Source: Erysipelotrichaceae bacterium OPF54 (GTDB lineage Bacteria > Bacillota_I > Bacilli_A > Erysipelotrichales > Erysipelotrichaceae). From it: DNA of 64,000 nucleotides. Position numbers and translations under genes: made by a program. The stretch spans positions 163,659 to 227,658 of the forward strand of contig BQKD01000001.1 in assembly GCA_022834735.1 (NCBI GenBank), given 5' to 3'. Below, piece by piece: positions 19,549 to 49,625 of this stretch. Each line of letters starts with the position of its first letter. Positions within the stretch are counted from its first letter, which is position 1. The notes under the pieces were generated by a model. It ran no database searches, was not told the DNA's origin, and saw nothing but the letters and a program-made list of their open reading frames with translations.

Positions 19549-20103
19549 AGTGTCGGGCATGACACGCATCGAGTCGGTGAAAGTCCGGACCACGGGCCGT
19601 CTACTGCCAAGTGTAGCGAACCACAAGCCGCAGGCCGTGAGGCCGAGGGTGAAGGAAGTGCGGGAGCAAAGTTTGCGAGTCTACGAACAGAAATGTGATA
19701 TAAGGCCAAATGACAGATCAGGTTGCTACACAAACCGAAGTCGCAATAGTAGAACGTAAATGTCAAAACGGTAAATCACGAGGCTTGGAATGAAAGATGT
19801 GTGTCTTACCCCGAGAGATCTTGCGGACATCGAGTCCGAAACCTTTCAAACAGGGATCGGTAACGTAGAATATGGTCGAAAAAGGTTTACCGCAAGAAGT
19901 CAGCTGAAGCCATAGTAGCGATGAACTTTCTGTAACGGAAAGGAAGCGAAGGGCGGATTGTATGTATAGTGTTTCCCGCTGGGAATAAGCGGTGCACAGC
20001 TCGAAAGCCGGGCGATTCAAAAAAAATGCGAGTCGTAACGAGTGTTAGAAGAGCAGAGCGGGAGCGGCTGCACTGACTATGTGAAAAGAATGGAGGAACA
20101 GCC

Positions 20104-33054: not shown

Positions 33055-34446
33055 ATGAATCTGATCACAAATGCCATGATCGTGCCGCATCCGCCGATCA
33101 TCGTGCCCAATATCGGAAAGGGAGAAGAAAGGAAAATACAAAATATAACGGATGCTTATAAGGACGCCGCGAAGAGGCTGATCGATTCCCGACCGGATAC
33201 GGTCGTGATCATTTCCCCGCATGCACCCTCTTATTTTGATTACATTCAGATTTCATCCGGAAAAGAAGCGTACGGAGATCTTGGCCAGTTCCGGGATCGC
33301 GAGGATTCCTTTCATATCCGCTATGATCAGGAGCTGATCGAAAAGATCGATGCAGCATGCCAGGAACAGGGAATTCCTGCCGGCACGCTCGGAAAACAGG
33401 ACGGCCTGCTCGATCACGGCACCATGGTCCCGCTTTATTTTTTGAAAGAGCTGCCCGAACACGTGAAATTTATCCGGATCGGGATCGGCGGACCAAATGC
33501 CCGCATCCATTACGCTCTTGGGCAGATCATTGCCCGGCAGGCACGTGCGCTTGGCCGCAGGATCGCGATCGTGGGCAGCGGCGACCTGAGCCACTGCCAG
33601 AAGCCGGACAGCTCCTACGGATATAAGGAATGCGGCCCGAAGTATGATGAAAACATCATGAATATCCTCGCTGCAGGAGATTTTCTTGCCCTGATGGACA
33701 TTCCGGAACACGACAGTGAAGACGCCATGGTCTGCGGACAGAAATCGTTCTGCGTCCTGGCCGGAAGTCTCGACGGGTTGGCTGTCAAAGCGTCTGCACC
33801 CGAACATAGTGCAGCTTTCGGTGTGGGATACGGCGTCGTTTCCTATGAACCGTCAGGCCCTGACCCGGACCGTCATTTTCTGATCACGGCCAATGCGCAG
33901 GCCCTGGAAACCTATAATGAAAGGATCGCGAACGAAGATCCGTATGTTTCGCTGGCCCGGACAACGATCAGCCACTATATCAAAGGACATGAGCTTGTTC
34001 TTCCGGGTACCAGTCTGCCTGAAGAAATGCTGACTGGAAAGGCTGGCGTGTTCGTATCGATCCATGAAAACGGAAGGCTGCGCGGCTGCATCGGAACCAC
34101 CGCACCCGTACAGGAATGCATTGCCAATGAGATCATTGAAAATGCGATCTCCGCTTCAACACGCGATCCGCGCTTTCCTGCCATTCAGCCATGGGAGCTT
34201 GAAGCGCTCGAGATCCATGTCGATGTGCTGCAGCCAGCCCAGCCGATCCCGGACGAAAGCAGTCTGGACCCGAAAAAGTACGGCGTGATCGTGACCAAAG
34301 GAAACCGGTGCGGCCTGCTTCTGCCTTATCTGGAAGGTGTCGATACGATCGAAAAGCAAGTATCGATCGCCAAGGAAAAGGCAGGGCTGGCTGCTGATGA
34401 ACCGGATTGCCAGCTTGAACGGTTCGAGGTGGTGCGCCACACATGA
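33055..34446 (+). CDS. Memo-AMMECR1 fusion protein (AmmeMemoRadiSam system A+B)
   Basis: 463 aa. Residues 1-270 form a Memo/class III extradiol dioxygenase-like domain (PHPPIIVPNIG, VVIISPHAPSYFDY, LDHGTMVPLYFL, IAIVGSGDLSHC). Residues 290-460 form an AMMECR1 domain with the hallmark GRLRGCIGT, RDPRFPAIQPWELE and GVIVTKGNRCGLLLP. In many bacteria these go with a radical SAM enzyme in a conserved but uncharacterised module (known as AmmeMemoRadiSam). GGAGGCGTTATT precedes ATG. The partner gene overlaps by 4 bp but is broken. Confidence 0.9.
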   Translation: MNLITNAMIVPHPPIIVPNIGKGEERKIQNITDAYKDAAKRLIDSRPDTVVIISPHAPSYFDYIQISSGKEAYGDLGQFRDREDSFHIRYDQELIEKIDAACQEQGIPAGTLGKQDGLLDHGTMVPLYFLKELPEHVKFIRIGIGGPNARIHYALGQIIARQARALGRRIAIVGSGDLSHCQKPDSSYGYKECGPKYDENIMNILAAGDFLALMDIPEHDSEDAMVCGQKSFCVLAGSLDGLAVKASAPEHSAAFGVGYGVVSYEPSGPDPDRHFLITANAQALETYNERIANEDPYVSLARTTISHYIKGHELVLPGTSLPEEMLTGKAGVFVSIHENGRLRGCIGTTAPVQECIANEIIENAISASTRDPRFPAIQPWELEALEIHVDVLQPAQPIPDESSLDPKKYGVIVTKGNRCGLLLPYLEGVDTIEKQVSIAKEKAGLAADEPDCQLERFEVVRHT

Positions 34447-34985
34447 AATGCGAAACATGCTTCCGACAGTGCGAACTGAAAGAAGGACAGACCGGATTGT
34501 GCATGGCACGGAAAAATAGCGGGAATGTGATCATGGACCGCAATTACGGCAAGATCACTTCTGCGGCGCTGGATCCGATCGAAAAGAAGCCGCTCGCCAT
34601 GTATCATCCGGGCAGCATGATCCTTTCGGTCGGCAGCTATGGATGCAATCTGCGATGTCCGTTCTGTCAGAACCATTCGATCGCCCAGAACGATCTGGAT
34701 GATCGATGCGAAACTGTCACGCCCGCGCAGCTTGTCGAGAAAGCGCTCGCGCTCAAGCCGTATGGAAACATCGGCATTGCCTTTACAAAACCTTCTAAAG
34801 CCCACGGTTTCAACCGTGGGACGAACAAATATCAGAATATATATATTTTAACTCATTAAGAGATATGAAATCGTTGAACTAAGCTATGTATCTCTTTTTT
34901 TGTGATATTTCATATATTCTGTATATTTATTATTTTGATTTATAATAAAACTGGATATTTTGGTGATGTTGTGTATAATTAAATT

Positions 34986-35390
34986 ATGAATAAACGATAC
35001 AGACTCTCGCAAGCCGCCGTTTTCATGGTCCGCTATCATTTCGTTTTCTGTCCCCGCTACTGCAGGAAAATCTTCCTCATTCCCGGTGTCGAGGAACGTT
35101 TCAAAGAACTTGTCCGTCAGATATGCCAGGAAAAGGAACTGGATATCCTGGCTATGGAATGCGATAAAGACCATGTTCATCTTTTCGTCGAAGCGTGGCC
35201 TCAGCAGTCTATCCCTTCCATCATGAAATGGATTAAGGGGCCGACCTCGCATATCATTCGAAACGAATTCCCTCAACTTTCCCGTGTCCCGAGCTTATGG
35301 ACCAGAAGCTATTTCGTCAGCACGGCCGGCGAGGTCAGCTCGGAGACCATCCAGCGGTATGTGGAAACACAAAAAACACGGTATGAGTAA
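34986..35390 (+). CDS. tnpA: IS200/IS605 transposase TnpA (Y1 HUH)
   Basis: 134 aa. HUH motif in AMECDKDHVHLFVEAWPQ, catalytic Tyr in IQRYVETQ near the end. RYHFVFCPRYCRKIF at the start is the usual signature. Complete. It cuts and joins single-stranded ends of IS200/IS605 elements; it could also move the TnpB-only element or the 50-bp remnant if end sequences are compatible, but the hairpins differ and this is only a possibility. Confidence 0.93.
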   Translation: MNKRYRLSQAAVFMVRYHFVFCPRYCRKIFLIPGVEERFKELVRQICQEKELDILAMECDKDHVHLFVEAWPQQSIPSIMKWIKGPTSHIIRNEFPQLSRVPSLWTRSYFVSTAGEVSSETIQRYVETQKTRYE

Positions 35391-35449
35391 ATCCCGTATT
35401 ACGGGCGACTGAGATAATCTGAACCAGCGAAACAGACAGGAGGCAGACC

Positions 35450-36197
35450 ATGCATACATTGACATTGAAGCTCGAAACAAACGATGCCCAGGAACACGAA
35501 CTGGATAAACGGTTCCGTGTCATGTGCCATATCCATAATGTACTGGTCAAGCGGTCCATCAAACTGCTCGGCCGGGTGGCTCATGACACATCTTATCAAG
35601 CTCTTAAAACAAACTATCTCCATAGCGGGAAGGAAGAAAAGAAAGCACTGTCCGCTCAGATGAAATCCTTCCGGGAATCGATTGGATTGTCCGAATACGG
35701 GCTCCAGTCCTATATCAAGGTATGCGGAAGAAAATACAAAAAGCTGGTTTCTTCCAGTCAGGTACAGAAAGAAGCGACCCGTGTATGGAAGGGAGTAGAA
35801 AAGGTCCTGTTTTCCGACGGACAACATCTTCATTTCAAAAAGGAAGAGGACTTCGACTGTATCGGCGGAAAGTCGAATACGAACGGAGCCAAGTTCGACA
35901 AAGAGAGTTTGTCTGTCGTATGGAACGGGCTGTATCTTGCATGCCGGAAACCGCGCAATGAAAAAGAAGTATGGTATGTTCATGAATCGCTGAAGGACGA
36001 TATCTCCTACTGCGAGATCAAAAGGAAGATGTTCAACAATGGATGGCATTACTACGCCATCATCGTCCTCAAGGACGAAGCGCCGAAGAAGCACCGCCAG
36101 GAACAGAAAGCATGCAGTGCAGGAAGGACCGGTATCGATATCGGCGTATCGACAATCGCTGTCGTCAGCGAACAGGAAGTCGTCCTTCATTGCGCTG
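35450..36197 (+). pseudogene. tnpB: TnpB, C-terminally truncated
   Basis: About 250 residues of an IS605 OrfB: TLKLETNDAQEHELDKRF, RRKYKKL-like bridge region, and the first RuvC motif GIDIGVSTIAVV. After EVVLHC the frame passes into the flanking gene, so the Glu motif, zinc finger and last Asp motif are gone. The nuclease cannot be active. AGGAGGCAGACC precedes the ATG. Confidence 0.88.
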
Positions 36198-36450
36198 GCT
36201 GCCACGAAAGCGCATGTGGAAATCACCACACTGATCGTGCCCGGAAAAAACGATTCGGCAGAAGAGATGGATGCGCTCGCTTCGTTTTTGGCTTCCGTCT
36301 CGCCGGATATCCCGCTGCACCTGACCCGCTATTTTCCGCGCTGGCATGAAAAAACGCCAGCCACTCCGATCTAAACATTAAAAGTTCTTCAGGAAACGGC
36401 TGGTCGTCATGTAAACCATGTATTTCTTGGAAATGTATAGTTTTTGAATT

Positions 36451-37365
36451 TCATCGCTCTTTTTCTACGGCATTTTTGAACGCCTCATGGAAAAGGGCGA
36501 TCGTTTTATACCGTCTGTCTGGGTCCGGATCGACTGCCCGGCAGACGACCTTGTAGGAATGCGGGCCCAAAGACCAATTCTTTAAGGCGCAAGGAACAAA
36601 TCGGGCATTCTGGTAGCGTGCCCGGATCTGCTCCGTCGTGTACTGTCCGAAAAAATCAAAAAGCAGCGCACCCAGCGTGAATTCATTGGTCCGTTCGTCA
36701 ATGACAGCTCCTTTTTCATATTCTTCGGGCGCTTTGAGCCGCTTTGTGCCCCAGAAGTCTTTTCCGATCGTATTTATGAGCGGCTCTTTTTCAAAAAGAT
36801 CGATATCGCAGATCTTCAATGTGTCCTTTTCGAAATCGTAGATCAGACTGCCGTCATAAAAATCGACGGCCACGTAGCCCCTTTGGGCCACATGTTCCAG
36901 AAAGGAAAACAGAACTTCGGCTGCGCAGAGCTTTTTTTCAGCAGGAAGCATCCTGAACCGTTTTCGCGGATCCGGTTTTCCGTTCCTGTACTGATCGAAA
37001 TTCCAGTGTTCGAACAGGCAGCTGCCGCAAGCCCATTCAAAAACGGCCACATAGCCGTGATCGATCGAAAAGTCATCCAGCAAAGTGATCAAATGGGGAT
37101 GTTCCAGGCTCTTATACACATCGACTGCTTTTTTCAGCGTTTCTATGGAACGCTCGGGATCGATCTCGGCATGGATCGTATCGAGACCGGCCACCTTGAC
37201 AAATCGCTTTGTGATGCCGTCGTCCATGCCGAAACACACACAGCCCGAGCCCGTCTGGTCAATGATGACAAACGCTTTCCCGTATCGCTGGAGCCAGGAA
37301 AGGTCAGGATCACTGAACAGACGAAAGGAAATGCCGTCCAGAGTATGGCGCTGCGCCTGCCTCAT
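36451..37365 (-). CDS. Degenerate protein kinase-like protein
   Basis: 304 aa with a Ser/Thr kinase-like fold. KRFVKVAG looks like the beta3 Lys; YKSLEHPHLITLLDDF and VAVFEWACGSCLFEHW follow as in eukaryotic-type kinases. The catalytic loop reads VAVDFYDGSLIYD instead of HRDLKPxN and DFG is DID (KICDIDLF), so activity is doubtful or altered. The C-terminal half has WGTKRLKAPEEYEKG and FTLGALLFDFFG. No transmembrane segment. It overlaps the SGNH hydrolase stop codon by 4 bp, so the two proteins are made together. Confidence 0.75.
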   Translation of the reverse strand: MRQAQRHTLDGISFRLFSDPDLSWLQRYGKAFVIIDQTGSGCVCFGMDDGITKRFVKVAGLDTIHAEIDPERSIETLKKAVDVYKSLEHPHLITLLDDFSIDHGYVAVFEWACGSCLFEHWNFDQYRNGKPDPRKRFRMLPAEKKLCAAEVLFSFLEHVAQRGYVAVDFYDGSLIYDFEKDTLKICDIDLFEKEPLINTIGKDFWGTKRLKAPEEYEKGAVIDERTNEFTLGALLFDFFGQYTTEQIRARYQNARFVPCALKNWSLGPHSYKVVCRAVDPDPDRRYKTIALFHEAFKNAVEKER

Positions 37366-37994
37366 TTCCGCGCTCTTATTTCTTCGATCTTCGCCTGGAT
37401 GGCGCGGGCCAGCTTTTCGTGGCTATCTGCTTCCATATGCACGCCATCGATGTCGGAAGGACAGGCATGCCGGGACGCGTCCAGAAAGTAAATATCATAC
37501 GGTTCGCATACGGTCTGGATGTGGGAGGAAAGAAGACGGGACTGTTCGAGGCTGCGGCCGTTAAAATCCCCGCCCGGCCCTTCGAGCTCTTCGATCTTTT
37601 CATGCAGGAGGATTGGAGATACGATCAGGATCGAGGGCACTCCATACGTGTACAGGTTCGGGTCGCTGATCGTGCGCACAAATGAGCGGGCGCCTCGTGC
37701 GATCGCTGCCGCGTTGGCATGGAACTGAACTTTCAGATCGTTGGTGCCCAGCATCACGATGACCAGATCGATCGGATCGTGGCTCATGAGCAGGGTGGGC
37801 AGCGCAGCAAGGCCGCACCGACCGGGAGTGAAAGGATCCTCGAAGGCGAAGGTGCGCCCGTTGCATCCTTCTTCGATGATCTCATCCTCTTTCAGCCATG
37901 TTCGAAGCAGGCGCGTCCACCGCCTGTCCTGTCTTGTTCTGTCGGCAGGGTCGAAGCCCCACGTATTGCTGTCGCCGATGCATAAAATTCTCAT
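37362..37994 (-). CDS. SGNH/GDSL-type hydrolase (210 aa)
   Basis: Block I is LCIGDSNTWGFDP (catalytic Ser), block III VIVMLGTNDLK and block V SDIDGVHMEADSHEKLA (Asp-x-x-His). A lipase/esterase-type arylesterase that removes acyl groups from an unknown substrate; no signal peptide. GAAGAGGAAAACCA precedes ATG. First gene of a two-gene unit with the kinase-like protein. Confidence 0.9.
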   Translation of the reverse strand: MRILCIGDSNTWGFDPADRTRQDRRWTRLLRTWLKEDEIIEEGCNGRTFAFEDPFTPGRCGLAALPTLLMSHDPIDLVIVMLGTNDLKVQFHANAAAIARGARSFVRTISDPNLYTYGVPSILIVSPILLHEKIEELEGPGGDFNGRSLEQSRLLSSHIQTVCEPYDIYFLDASRHACPSDIDGVHMEADSHEKLARAIQAKIEEIRARK

Positions 37995-38030: not shown

Positions 38031-38059
38031 TTGACAAATGCAAAAGGGACTGATACTAT
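38031..38059 (+). promoter_or_regulatory. Consensus promoter of a candidate small RNA
   Basis: TTGACA at 38031-38036, 17-bp spacer, TACTAT at 38054-38059. Confidence 0.75.
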
Positions 38060-38065
38060 TCTTTC

Positions 38066-38179
38066 ATGAGTTAGTCATATCTAACTTGAAAGAACATAAG
38101 TCCTCTTTCGTTTATTGTGTGTTCTTTCTTTACACAAAAACGCTTGTCCGCTTTCTGGCTTTGCGGGCAAGCTTTTTTT
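38066..38179 (+). ncRNA. Candidate small RNA, about 114 nt
   Basis: A near-consensus promoter 7 bp upstream and an intrinsic terminator at its end bound a short transcript with no convincing reading frame. It would fold into AGTTAG/CTAACT (38069-38086), GAAAGAACA/TGTTCTTTC (38088-38096/38120-38128) and the terminator GCTTGTCCGC/GCGGGCAAGC (38142-38172) plus seven U. It lies between two minus-strand genes and the terminator can serve the convergent hypothetical gene as well. I do not recognise an RNA family. Confidence 0.6.
38141..38179. terminator. Bidirectional terminator of the small RNA
   Basis: 10-bp stem GCTTGTCCGC/GCGGGCAAGC with T7 on the plus strand and T5 on the minus strand. Confidence 0.85.
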
Positions 38180-38184
38180 GTTGG

Positions 38185-38517
38185 CTATTCTTCGTCTTCT
38201 TCATCCAGGTCGCCGGTCATGGCTTTGAGCAGTTTCCAGTCCTTGTAGCTTGATTTTACGTATTTTTTTACTTCTTTCGCTACAGCGCTTGTCACCGCAT
38301 GGCGCTGGCGGTTGACCGAATAGTAAATGGTCAGGATCATTTCCTTGAGCTCTTCCTCGTCGAGCCAGTCCAGCTTGTCTTCCGGTGTATCGTACAGTTC
38401 GTGATAAATTTTCGCGAGGACCGCGATCCGGTTCGCCTGGGTCACATCATCCATCAGGTCATTGAACGCGTCCTGCAGTTTAGGCTGCATATAGGCAGCA
38501 ATCTGTTCATGTGTCAT
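38185..38517 (-). CDS. Hypothetical helical protein (110 aa)
   Basis: Soluble, mostly helical, acidic C-terminus (MTGDLDEEDEE). Segments DKLDWLDEEELKEMILTIYY and RHAVTSAVAKEVKKYVK. No domain recognised. AAGGAGAGACTTTGACTT precedes ATG. It stands alone between the small RNA and ilvC. Confidence 0.7.
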   Translation of the reverse strand: MTHEQIAAYMQPKLQDAFNDLMDDVTQANRIAVLAKIYHELYDTPEDKLDWLDEEELKEMILTIYYSVNRQRHAVTSAVAKEVKKYVKSSYKDWKLLKAMTGDLDEEDEE

Positions 38518-46675: not shown

Positions 46676-46730
46676 TTAGTTGACACTAACCAGATATTAG
46701 AATAAACTAATAACTGTTAGAAATAACTAA
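46676..46730 (+). promoter_or_regulatory. Three TTAG-N6-CTAA palindromes before feo
   Basis: TTAG-TTGACA-CTAA (46676-46689), TTAG-AATAAA-CTAA (46697-46710), TTAG-AAATAA-CTAA (46717-46730). Start-to-start distances are 21 and 20 bp, about two helical turns. They end 25 bp before the first feoA. The TTAGNNNNNNCTAA core resembles DtxR/IdeR/MntR-type boxes (known), so iron-dependent repression of feo is likely. Confidence 0.75.
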
Positions 46731-46754: not shown

Positions 46755-46967
46755 ATGATGCCACTTACATTAGCGGACGTAGGAAAAGCGTATACGATCG
46801 TGCGGATCACGGGCAAGGATGAAGTTCGTACGCATTTAAGAAATCTTGGATTTGTCGAAAACGGTATTGTCAGTATCGTATCGAGCATAAACGGCAATCT
46901 GATCGTGGAAGTGAAAGACTGCCGGATGGCAATGAACGAGTCGCTGGCAAGAAGGATCATGGTCTAA
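46755..46967 (+). CDS. feoA: FeoA-like SH3 protein 1
   Basis: 70-aa small SH3-like protein, one of two in tandem. PLTLADVGKAYTIVRITG opens the fold and SRVNILVEVKD-like end reads NGNLIVEVKDCRMAMNESLA. It modulates the GTPase/transport activity of FeoB. AAGGAGGAATC precedes ATG. Duplicated FeoA proteins in front of FeoB are common in Firmicutes (known). Confidence 0.92.
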   Translation: MMPLTLADVGKAYTIVRITGKDEVRTHLRNLGFVENGIVSIVSSINGNLIVEVKDCRMAMNESLARRIMV

Positions 46968-46980
46968 GGAAGGAGAACTT

Positions 46981-47202
46981 ATGAAAACGTTGAATTTGTG
47001 TGTACCGAAAGATACGGTGACCGTTACGAAACTGACAGGAAACGGTGCCGTGAAAAGAAGGATCATGGACATGGGGATCACGAAAGGTGTAGAGATCTAC
47101 GTTAGAAAAGTGGCTCCGTTAGGCGATCCGATGGAACTGACTGTGCGGGGCTATGAACTGAGCATCCGCAAGGCCGATGCGTCGATGATCGAAGTGGCAT
47201 AG
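46981..47202 (+). CDS. feoA: FeoA-like SH3 protein 2
   Basis: 73-aa second FeoA with VTVTKLTGNGAVKRRIMDMG and PLGDPMELTVRGYELSIRKA, the canonical end of FeoA. AAGGAGAACTT precedes ATG, 13 bp after the first feoA. Confidence 0.95.
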   Translation: MKTLNLCVPKDTVTVTKLTGNGAVKRRIMDMGITKGVEIYVRKVAPLGDPMELTVRGYELSIRKADASMIEVA

Positions 47203-47216
47203 AAAGGGGAAGGATC

Positions 47217-49403
47217 ATGAGTATAAATATTGCGCTGGCAGGAAATCCGAACTGCGGCAAAACGACATTGTTCAATGCTCTTACTGGCTCAAGACAGCGG
47301 GTAGGCAACTGGCCGGGCGTGACGGTCGAGAAAAAGGAAGGGGTCCTGAAAGGGCAGGCGGATGTCCTGATCCGGGATCTTCCGGGAATCTATTCCCTTT
47401 CTCCGTATTCTCTTGAGGAAGTGGTTTCGAGAAACTATCTGGTCAACGAACATCCGGAAGCGATCCTGAATATCGTTGACGGCACGAACATCGAGCGCAA
47501 CCTCTATCTGACGACCCAGCTTCTCGAGCTTGGTATCCCGGTCGTGGCAGCTATCAACATGATGGATCTTGTCAAAGCTAATGGCGATGTGATCGATTGT
47601 AAAAAGCTGTCAAAAGAGCTTGGCTGCCCGGTCACAGAAATTTCGGCCCTGAAAAAGGACGGGATCGACGAGGCAATCAAGCTCGCTATTCAGGCTGCTG
47701 GCGGAAAAGAGCAGCAGAAGGTGTTCGATTCGTATTCGAAATATGTTCGTGATGCGCTTTCTGAAATCGAGCGGATCATAAAAGGGAAAGTGGATGACAG
47801 AGAAATCCTGTGGTATGCGGTGAAGCTTTTCGAACGCGATCTGCGGATCAGGGAAATGGTCGATCTGAGCGAAAAAGATAAGAAAAAAATAGAAGAATCG
47901 ATCGAACGGGTCGAAAAGGAGCTGGATGATGATTCGGAATCGATCATTACTTCCCAGCGGTATGAGGCGATCGGAAAGATCGTGGCAGACTGTGTAAAAA
48001 AGAAGCCGGTGAAGGAAAAGCTGACCGTTTCCGATAAGATCGACAAGATCGTGACGAACCGGGTGCTGGCTCTGCCCATCTTCATTGTCATCATGTTTGG
48101 TGTGTATTCGATCGCGATGGGCAGCTGGCCGTTCTCGATCGGTACGATGGGAACCGACTGGGCCAATGATGTGCTGTTTGGCGAATGGGTGCCGAACGGG
48201 GTCGACGCGTTCCTGACCTCGCTGCATGTCGATCCGGTGCTTGGCAGCCTGATCCAGGACGGGATCGTGGCAGGTGTCGGGGCGACGCTTGGCTTCGTTC
48301 CGCAGATGCTTGTGCTCTTTTTCCTGCTCGCTCTGCTGGAGGACTGCGGATATATGGCGCGGGTCGCGTTCATCATGGACCGCATTTTCCGCCGGTTCGG
48401 TTTATCGGGAAAGAGCTTTATCCCGCTGCTTGTGGCGACAGGCTGCGGCGTGCCCGGGATCATGTCGAGCCGGACGATCGAACAGGACCGCGACCGGAAG
48501 ATGACGATCATGACGACCGGCTTTATTCCGTGCGGGGCGAAGATGCCGATCATCGCGCTGTTTGCGGGCGCTGTGTTCGGAGGCGGTTCCCTGGTAGCGA
48601 CCAGCGCTTTCATGATCGGGATCGCTGCTGTTATCATCACCGGTATCATCCTGAAAAAGTTCAAGGCGTTCGCGGGCGAACCGGCGCCGTTCGTGATCGA
48701 GCTGCCGCCTTATCATGTGCCTGGCCTTGGTAATGTGCTGCGCACGACATGGGAGCGGGGCTGGTCGTTCATCAAGCGTGCCGGCACGCTCATCCTTGCG
48801 TCTTCGATCGTTTTGTGGTTCCTGCAGAGTTTCGGTTTCGTGAATGGCGGTTTCGGCATGGTCGACGACAACAATTACTCGCTGCTTGCCGATCTGGGCC
48901 GCGCTCTGGCATGGATCTTCTATCCGCTTGGCTGGGTAGGCGATATGGCATGGAAAGCGACGGTTGCCACATTTACCGGACTGATTGCCAAAGAGGAAGT
49001 GGTCAATACGTTCGGGATCTTGTACAATGCGGGCGAAGTGGCGGAGGATGGCATGGAGATCTGGGGCCTTGTGGCTGCCGATTTCTCGGTCGTGGCGGCG
49101 TATTCGTTCATGATCTTCCAGCTGCTGTGCGCGCCTTGTTTTGCGGCAATGGGCGCGATCAAGCGGGAAATGAACAATACGAAATGGACGCTGTTCGCGA
49201 TCGGCTATATGACTGCCTTTGCGTATGTGATCGCGCTGATCGTCTATCAGCTTGGGGGACTGCTGCTCGGGATCGTTCATTTCAATGTGTTCACGATCGT
49301 GGCGCTCGTGTTGCTTGGTGCTTTGATCTATCTGCTTTGCCGCAAAGGATATGAGCCGGATCGCGAGGCGATCATTGGTGTTGAATTAAACGGCGCAAAA
49401 TAG
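47217..49403 (+). CDS. feoB: Ferrous iron transporter FeoB
   Basis: 728 aa. N-terminal G domain: GNPNCGKTTLFNALTG (G1), GVTVEKKEG (G2), DLPGIYSL (G3), NMMD (G4). A helical region (about 170-260) follows, then membrane gate domains with LEDCGYMARVAFIMDRI, GCGVPGIMSSRTIE and FIPCGAKMPIIALF; ends with several transmembrane segments. Imports Fe2+ across the cytoplasmic membrane in a GTP-dependent way. 15 bp after the second feoA. Confidence 0.97.
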   Translation: MSINIALAGNPNCGKTTLFNALTGSRQRVGNWPGVTVEKKEGVLKGQADVLIRDLPGIYSLSPYSLEEVVSRNYLVNEHPEAILNIVDGTNIERNLYLTTQLLELGIPVVAAINMMDLVKANGDVIDCKKLSKELGCPVTEISALKKDGIDEAIKLAIQAAGGKEQQKVFDSYSKYVRDALSEIERIIKGKVDDREILWYAVKLFERDLRIREMVDLSEKDKKKIEESIERVEKELDDDSESIITSQRYEAIGKIVADCVKKKPVKEKLTVSDKIDKIVTNRVLALPIFIVIMFGVYSIAMGSWPFSIGTMGTDWANDVLFGEWVPNGVDAFLTSLHVDPVLGSLIQDGIVAGVGATLGFVPQMLVLFFLLALLEDCGYMARVAFIMDRIFRRFGLSGKSFIPLLVATGCGVPGIMSSRTIEQDRDRKMTIMTTGFIPCGAKMPIIALFAGAVFGGGSLVATSAFMIGIAAVIITGIILKKFKAFAGEPAPFVIELPPYHVPGLGNVLRTTWERGWSFIKRAGTLILASSIVLWFLQSFGFVNGGFGMVDDNNYSLLADLGRALAWIFYPLGWVGDMAWKATVATFTGLIAKEEVVNTFGILYNAGEVAEDGMEIWGLVAADFSVVAAYSFMIFQLLCAPCFAAMGAIKREMNNTKWTLFAIGYMTAFAYVIALIVYQLGGLLLGIVHFNVFTIVALVLLGALIYLLCRKGYEPDREAIIGVELNGAK

Positions 49404-49433
49404 GAAGATAGATGCAGAAAGGCGGTGGTTTTT

Positions 49434-49625
49434 ATGAATCTGCCGACAATTGTGATCGGACTGATCATTCTGATCCTGTTTATATGGGCGGCCAGAAAGT
49501 CCTTCCGGTCGCGCTGTTCGGGAGACTGCTCGCATTGCGGCACTTCGTGCCATTCGGCAAAAAAGGGCGAAACGCCTCAATGGGTCGAACAATACAGAAA
49601 GGATCATCCGAAAAACAAGGAATAG
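49434..49625 (+). CDS. FeoB-associated Cys-rich membrane protein
   Basis: 63 aa. One N-terminal transmembrane helix (PTIVIGLIILILFIWAARKS) then CSGDCSHCGTSCH, a Cys/His cluster that could bind iron. This is the small protein (FeoC-position) that follows feoB in many Firmicutes. GAAAGGCGGTGG precedes the ATG at 49434. Confidence 0.9.
   Translation: MNLPTIVIGLIILILFIWAARKSFRSRCSGDCSHCGTSCHSAKKGETPQWVEQYRKDHPKNKE

Follow-up and report, generated by a model that had tools for sequence, protein, structure and literature searches.

Iron-sparing small RNAs (sRNAs), a class that includes RyhB, PrrF, FsrA, IsrR and MrsI, are known in few lineages, and they are hard to find because their sequences are not carried over between genera. 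IsrR of Staphylococcus is a Fur-controlled RNA of 174 nt, which has three C-rich regions and is conserved throughout the genus (PMC9410917). In the passages that PMC9410917 devotes to two further members, FsrA of Bacillus subtilis is described as controlled by Fur, as needing the FbpABC chaperones and as acting with a C-rich motif on Shine-Dalgarno (SD) sequences, and MrsI of Mycobacterium tuberculosis as an iron sRNA with predicted control by the DtxR-family regulator IdeR. For Erysipelotrichaceae, our search of the open-access literature found neither a described regulatory sRNA nor a DtxR regulon of such a kind.

In this study, we analyzed a stretch of 64,000 nt from Erysipelotrichaceae bacterium OPF54 (the window), in which positions 38031-38179 had been proposed, from the letters of the DNA, to be a small RNA gene. 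We consider it probable that this locus is the gene of a trans-acting sRNA of about 114 nt, which would be repressed by a DtxR/MntR-type metalloregulator, would block ribosome sites under metal shortage and would in this way be iron-sparing. Such an RNA probably works like the members of the class named above.

Structure of the candidate sRNA locus

The original prediction described a TTGACA-17 bp-TACTAT promoter followed by about 114 nt that are closed by an intrinsic terminator, all in a gap between two minus-strand genes. Each of these elements was recovered in our analysis, and the features of the locus are as follows.

38031-38059, plus strand: sigma-70-type promoter, TTGACA, 17 bp, TG-A-TACTAT (10 of 12 consensus matches)
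38066-38179, plus strand: predicted small RNA, length about 114 nt, its ends deduced from where the promoter and the terminator lie (z of the fold -6.1; no Rfam family)
38069-38086, no strand assigned: operator AGTTAGTCATATCTAACT with the core TTAG-N6-CTAA; placed over the start site, it also forms RNA hairpin 1 (one of 8 strict genome sites; spacing from the -10 as in other regulon promoters)
38100-38109, plus strand: GTCCTCTTTC, anti-SD stretch, predicted mostly unpaired and likely the pairing seed (unpaired probability about 0.75-0.81; used by the best predicted duplexes)
38142-38179, plus strand: intrinsic terminator with a 10-bp stem, an 11-nt loop and T7 (stem and T-run read from the sequence)

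The -35 (38031-38036) and -10 (38054-38059) elements, with an extended TG in front of the latter, formed the top promoter-like site within 2 kb (4 hits in the scan vs 1.7 expected). The arms of the terminator stem, GCTTGTCCGC and GCGGGCAAGC, occupy 38142-38151 and 38163-38172, and T7 runs from 38173 to 38179; our terminator scanner allowed loops of up to 8 nt, so that this terminator with its 11-nt loop was not listed by it. The flanking genes lie at 37362-37994, which encodes a GDSL/SGNH hydrolase according to the Pfam search, and at 38185-38517, whose 110-aa product matched no Pfam family above the cut-off. The locus had also been said to contain no convincing reading frame, and indeed none of its plus-strand frames had a convincing ribosome site. 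The sole sizeable one, a 71-aa ORF (38038-38253), was rejected: it starts inside the promoter, runs through the terminator and has no ribosome site.

Folding of the predicted transcript was strong, with -37.1 kcal/mol vs -18.0 ± 3.1 kcal/mol in shuffles (z -6.1; range of z -6.1 to -6.7). Without the terminator, z was -3.4, and the inner region of the RNA still folded better than shuffles (z -2.8). The minus strand of the locus also folds (z -4.8); one G-U wobble was read in each of the H1, H2 and terminator stems, where the opposite strand would have an A-C mismatch, and these wobbles favor transcription of the plus strand. The middle region can pair in two alternative ways of nearly equal energy, so that the three hairpins of the original prediction are only approximate and the fold is less fixed than they imply.

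Elsewhere in the window, two Rfam matches mark group II intron domains at 19631-19954, and an IS200/IS605-like TnpA/TnpB pair (34986-35390 and 35450-36349) appears to split a radical SAM gene with its start at 34443. The remainder of the interrupted protein seems to resume near 36200-36374, which gives 34443-36374 for the whole.

A probable metal-regulon operator at the predicted transcription start

Hairpin 1 of the sRNA is at the same time a DNA operator that overlaps the predicted transcription start, which the first reading of the sequence had missed. It lies just downstream of the -10 element, a position that matches other promoters of the regulon. Of the four copies of the core TTAG-N6-CTAA in the window, one belongs to the sRNA and the other three to the promoter of a feoA-feoA-feoB operon (feoAAB) that lies 8.6 kb from the sRNA and has the operator in common with it.

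46676-46730, no strand assigned: feo promoter with three operator cores, at 46676, 46697 and 46717 (motif search)
46755-49403, plus strand: feoA-feoA-feoB ferrous iron uptake operon, presumably co-regulated with the sRNA (PF04023 twice, PF02421, PF07664)
49425-49625, plus strand: FeoB-associated Cys-rich membrane protein (PF12669, 6e-08)

In the whole genome (3.2 Mb), the strict form RTTAG-N6-CTAAY has only 8 sites, namely the sRNA (1), feo (3), a gene for a 34-aa peptide (1) and one repeat (3 copies). When the sRNA element was searched against its own genome, a second copy of hairpin 1 appeared at C1:3075886, after a TTGACA-17-TAAATT promoter and before the gene for the 34-aa peptide, which contains Cys. 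Looser copies of the operator precede genes for a ZIP transporter, an ABC exporter and a pyruvate formate-lyase-like protein as well as a second feoAB, and the first three of these sites recur at the same genes in a genome of the same genus (G001). At the pyruvate formate-lyase-like gene, the operator is directly upstream of the -35 element (G000:C1:669688, L123; G001 C7/C8, L218), an arrangement more in keeping with activation than with repression.

Several other sites were recorded. Tiny genes of 34, 29 and about 23 aa, which encode mostly hydrophobic peptides, stand right behind the metal operator in several genomes (L127:7928-8032; L369, L371, L373; L216), and the 34-aa peptide of the present genome gave a weak, sub-threshold match to Hok/Gef. 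Three identical ATTAGGCAGCTCTAAT sites were found at G000:C1:2303748, 2374754 and 2445760, with a spacing of exactly 71,006 bp in both intervals. This looks like a stretch of about 71 kb in three tandem copies, which may be genuinely amplified or may have been produced by the assembly (9% contamination is flagged for this genome).

In the present genome and 29 relatives, the core was present at 29 of 30 feoB loci, mostly about 500 bp upstream of feoB and ahead of feoA-feoA. The full promoter-operator pattern TTGAC-N16-20-TANNNT-N2-12-GTTAG-N6-CTAAC was found in 93 of 146 family genomes, vs about 2 hits for the reversed pattern. Genes behind it in relatives included feoA, NrdI, ZIP, FecCD-like and substrate-binding transport genes, ABC exporters and FeoB-associated peptides. 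Judged by these sites, the operator serves as a metal-regulon element in this order, and by sequence it is common to the sRNA promoter and metal-uptake genes. In relatives it was also seen ahead of a phosphoglycerate-mutase-type histidine phosphatase (L305, L340) and of NrdI (L222, L239, L275 and others); these targets suggest metal-sparing swaps at the level of transcription, with a possible manganese signal.

Candidate repressor

A single protein with Fe_dep_repr_C, of 125 aa, was found in the genome. It matches both Fe_dep_repress Pfam models, and its nearest solved structure is MntR (7e-17), followed by other MntR and IdeR structures. Upstream of its gene we found TTGACA and GTTAGTCTTTACTAAA, so that this DtxR/MntR-type gene bears the motif itself; in one relative (G006), feo and a DtxR-like frame are arranged divergently. 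The 125-aa DtxR-like protein is likely the repressor acting on the operator, although we infer this pairing of protein and site. At the aligned positions that we take to be metal-site residues, the protein combines an Asp, as MntR has it, with the Cys-x-x-Glu-His of IdeR. This mixture, together with the NrdI and phosphoglycerate-mutase-like targets in relatives, means that Mn stays possible beside Fe; the most constant target of the operator is feo. Since the operator is shared with feo, is found at nearly all of the feoB loci examined and stands at the gene of the likely repressor, the sRNA is most likely induced by metal starvation (Fe, possibly Mn), and the possession of the feoAAB operator as its hairpin 1 points to its likely signal and role.

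Similar RNAs in related genomes

We read 119 distinct promoter-operator sites and sorted them by a mechanical rule (an ORF of at least 45 aa starting within 130 nt). Such an ORF was present at 91 sites, some of them spurious cases, the present sRNA locus among them, and absent from 28. For the non-coding set, small-peptide and mis-called genes were removed and three sites with a spurious-looking ORF were added, so the set was partly picked by eye. Twenty-one transcripts in relatives, like the present sRNA, are predicted to be non-coding and terminator-ended, and extend 84-246 nt beyond the operator (94 nt in the present sRNA). No overall sequence is shared between genera, whereas cores are kept within genera (G132/G152; G101/G033; G120/G142). 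The occurrence of the same promoter and operator layout ahead of these other transcripts supported the proposal that a stand-alone small RNA gene is the best reading of the locus.

Anti-SD 5-mers were strongly enriched in this class (80 vs 28 ± 6.4 in dinucleotide shuffles; 0/300), and many of them are predicted to be unpaired. The counts were 64 vs 22 when the present RNA was left out along with the three sites chosen by eye, and 31 vs 11.5 ± 4.2 with one member per group. SD 4-mers in the same sense were depleted (11 vs 25), partly because of how the non-coding sites were chosen; for the anti-SD excess we see no comparable selection bias, though the set is partly eye-picked. The enrichment suggests that the RNAs of this class may be FsrA/IsrR-like translation blockers. 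We would tentatively go further and propose that Erysipelotrichaceae have a family-wide set of metal-repressed RNAs, which have in common only a DtxR-type promoter-operator (hairpin 1) and anti-SD loops and which may have originated repeatedly, with unrelated sequences and at different loci, in a convergent birth of metal-sparing sRNAs on one shared operator module. In genus g32 (L314, L316, L317), a TPP riboswitch directly follows the candidate sRNA genes, so that transcripts reading through under metal control might there extend into a thiamine-related gene.

Proposed mechanism and predicted targets

The promoter, the operator, the terminator, the lack of an ORF, the common regulon and the class in relatives are present in the sequences themselves. 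Our inference, which takes in transcription, binding by the repressor, the metal, the pairing and the targets, is as follows. When metal is plentiful (most likely Fe2+; Mn2+ possible), the metal-loaded repressor would occupy AGTTAGTCATATCTAACT at the start and block transcription. When metal is short, the sRNA would be made along with feoAAB, and its accessible UCCUC(UUUC) could pair with ribosome-binding sites. Dispensable proteins, probably ones that use metal, would then be translated less, which would spare iron in the manner of FsrA and IsrR.

Pairing is the weakest step, because there is one anti-SD stretch, no homologue to compare and no confident target. The stretch (UCCUC) is unexceptional alone and is partly paired in one of the near-equal folds. 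A target search of the own genome with a wobble seed returned the complement of the sRNA itself, repeats, and matches that lacked a convincing start region. Duplex ranking, which covered the window only, placed an Fe-alcohol dehydrogenase first; it was set aside after falling outside the first 15 once accessibility was counted. Neither search gave a convincing target. It is unlikely, in our view, that the sRNA is real and metal-repressed and yet serves as an RNA sponge, a protein binder or the regulator of a single neighbour instead of blocking ribosome sites: a lone short anti-SD stretch would fit such a role, as would the absence of iron enzymes among the targets predicted in the window when accessibility is taken into account, whereas the RNAs of the class in relatives show a strong enrichment of unpaired anti-SD motifs.

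Conservation and gene order

No homologue of the present sRNA was found among 273 family genomes, and the RNA is found in its own genome only. Conservation across relatives and an Rfam search had been suggested as checks of the original prediction. On the former, the architecture recurs and the sequence does not; on the latter, no sRNA family scored above the gathering threshold in the window, in the element itself or at 18 loci from relatives, and the best sub-threshold matches were to unrelated families. DNA similarity searches returned nothing relevant from plasmids and phages, and from relatives only short matches, most of them unrelated on reading. The support for an sRNA gene is in the operator and the architecture, not in conservation of its own sequence.

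In G001, the one readable genome of the same genus, neither the sRNA nor the SGNH gene is present, and Rrf2 and cysK genes occupy the site. The gene order in common with this genome ends exactly at the sRNA locus, which, like the restriction of the RNA to one genome, is what a functionless remnant would show, that is, the terminator-ended promoter-operator of a lost metal-regulated gene at a rearrangement point. We regard this as very unlikely: promoter, operator and terminator are all intact, the inner region folds better than shuffles, and several other lineages have the same promoter-operator-short RNA-terminator layout. Equally slim is the chance that the palindrome serves the minus-strand SGNH gene, and that the plus-strand signals are incidental or just a bidirectional terminator of the 110-aa gene. 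In its favor, the operator lies 75 bp upstream of the SGNH gene and the hairpin at 38142-38172 could also terminate minus-strand transcription. Against it, the scan of the gap gave no promoter on the minus strand, while that on the plus strand is near consensus and shares its spacing to the operator with other promoters of the regulon; moreover, the stem is followed by T7 on the plus strand, and the G-U pairs favor that strand.

Comparison with known systems

In one family, a screen for the operator pattern TTGAC..TAnnnT..GTTAG-N6-CTAAC brought out a metal regulon together with about 20 sRNA candidates. If our reading of the metal-repressed sRNA is true, the origin of new regulatory RNAs and the messages silenced under metal limitation could be tested across related genomes.

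Compared with IsrR, the present sRNA has a DtxR-type operator, one UCCUC stretch and no detected sequence relation; the two are alike in metal-repressor boxes at the promoter, an intrinsic terminator and several stem-loops, and a counterpart of the single-stranded C-rich regions with which IsrR pairs with SD sequences is predicted here. FsrA, as PMC9410917 presents it, depends on Fur and FbpABC, and the present sRNA has no Rfam match to any family; it is predicted to resemble FsrA as a metal-repressed Firmicute sRNA with a C-rich, SD-binding motif. Homology to FsrA or IsrR finds no evidence in our data, given the lack of an Rfam match and the different regulator class. With regard to the DtxR, IdeR and MntR regulons, the present regulator differs in mixing an MntR-like Asp with an IdeR-like Cys-x-x-Glu-His, whereas the palindromic operator common to feo and other metal-uptake genes, and the match of the regulator to the family models, agree with them. 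Finally, MrsI belongs to another phylum and has no detected relation to the present sRNA, whose operator has the layout TTAG-N6-CTAA; within what PMC9410917 reports of it, however, MrsI offers a precedent for the control of an iron sRNA by a DtxR-family regulator.
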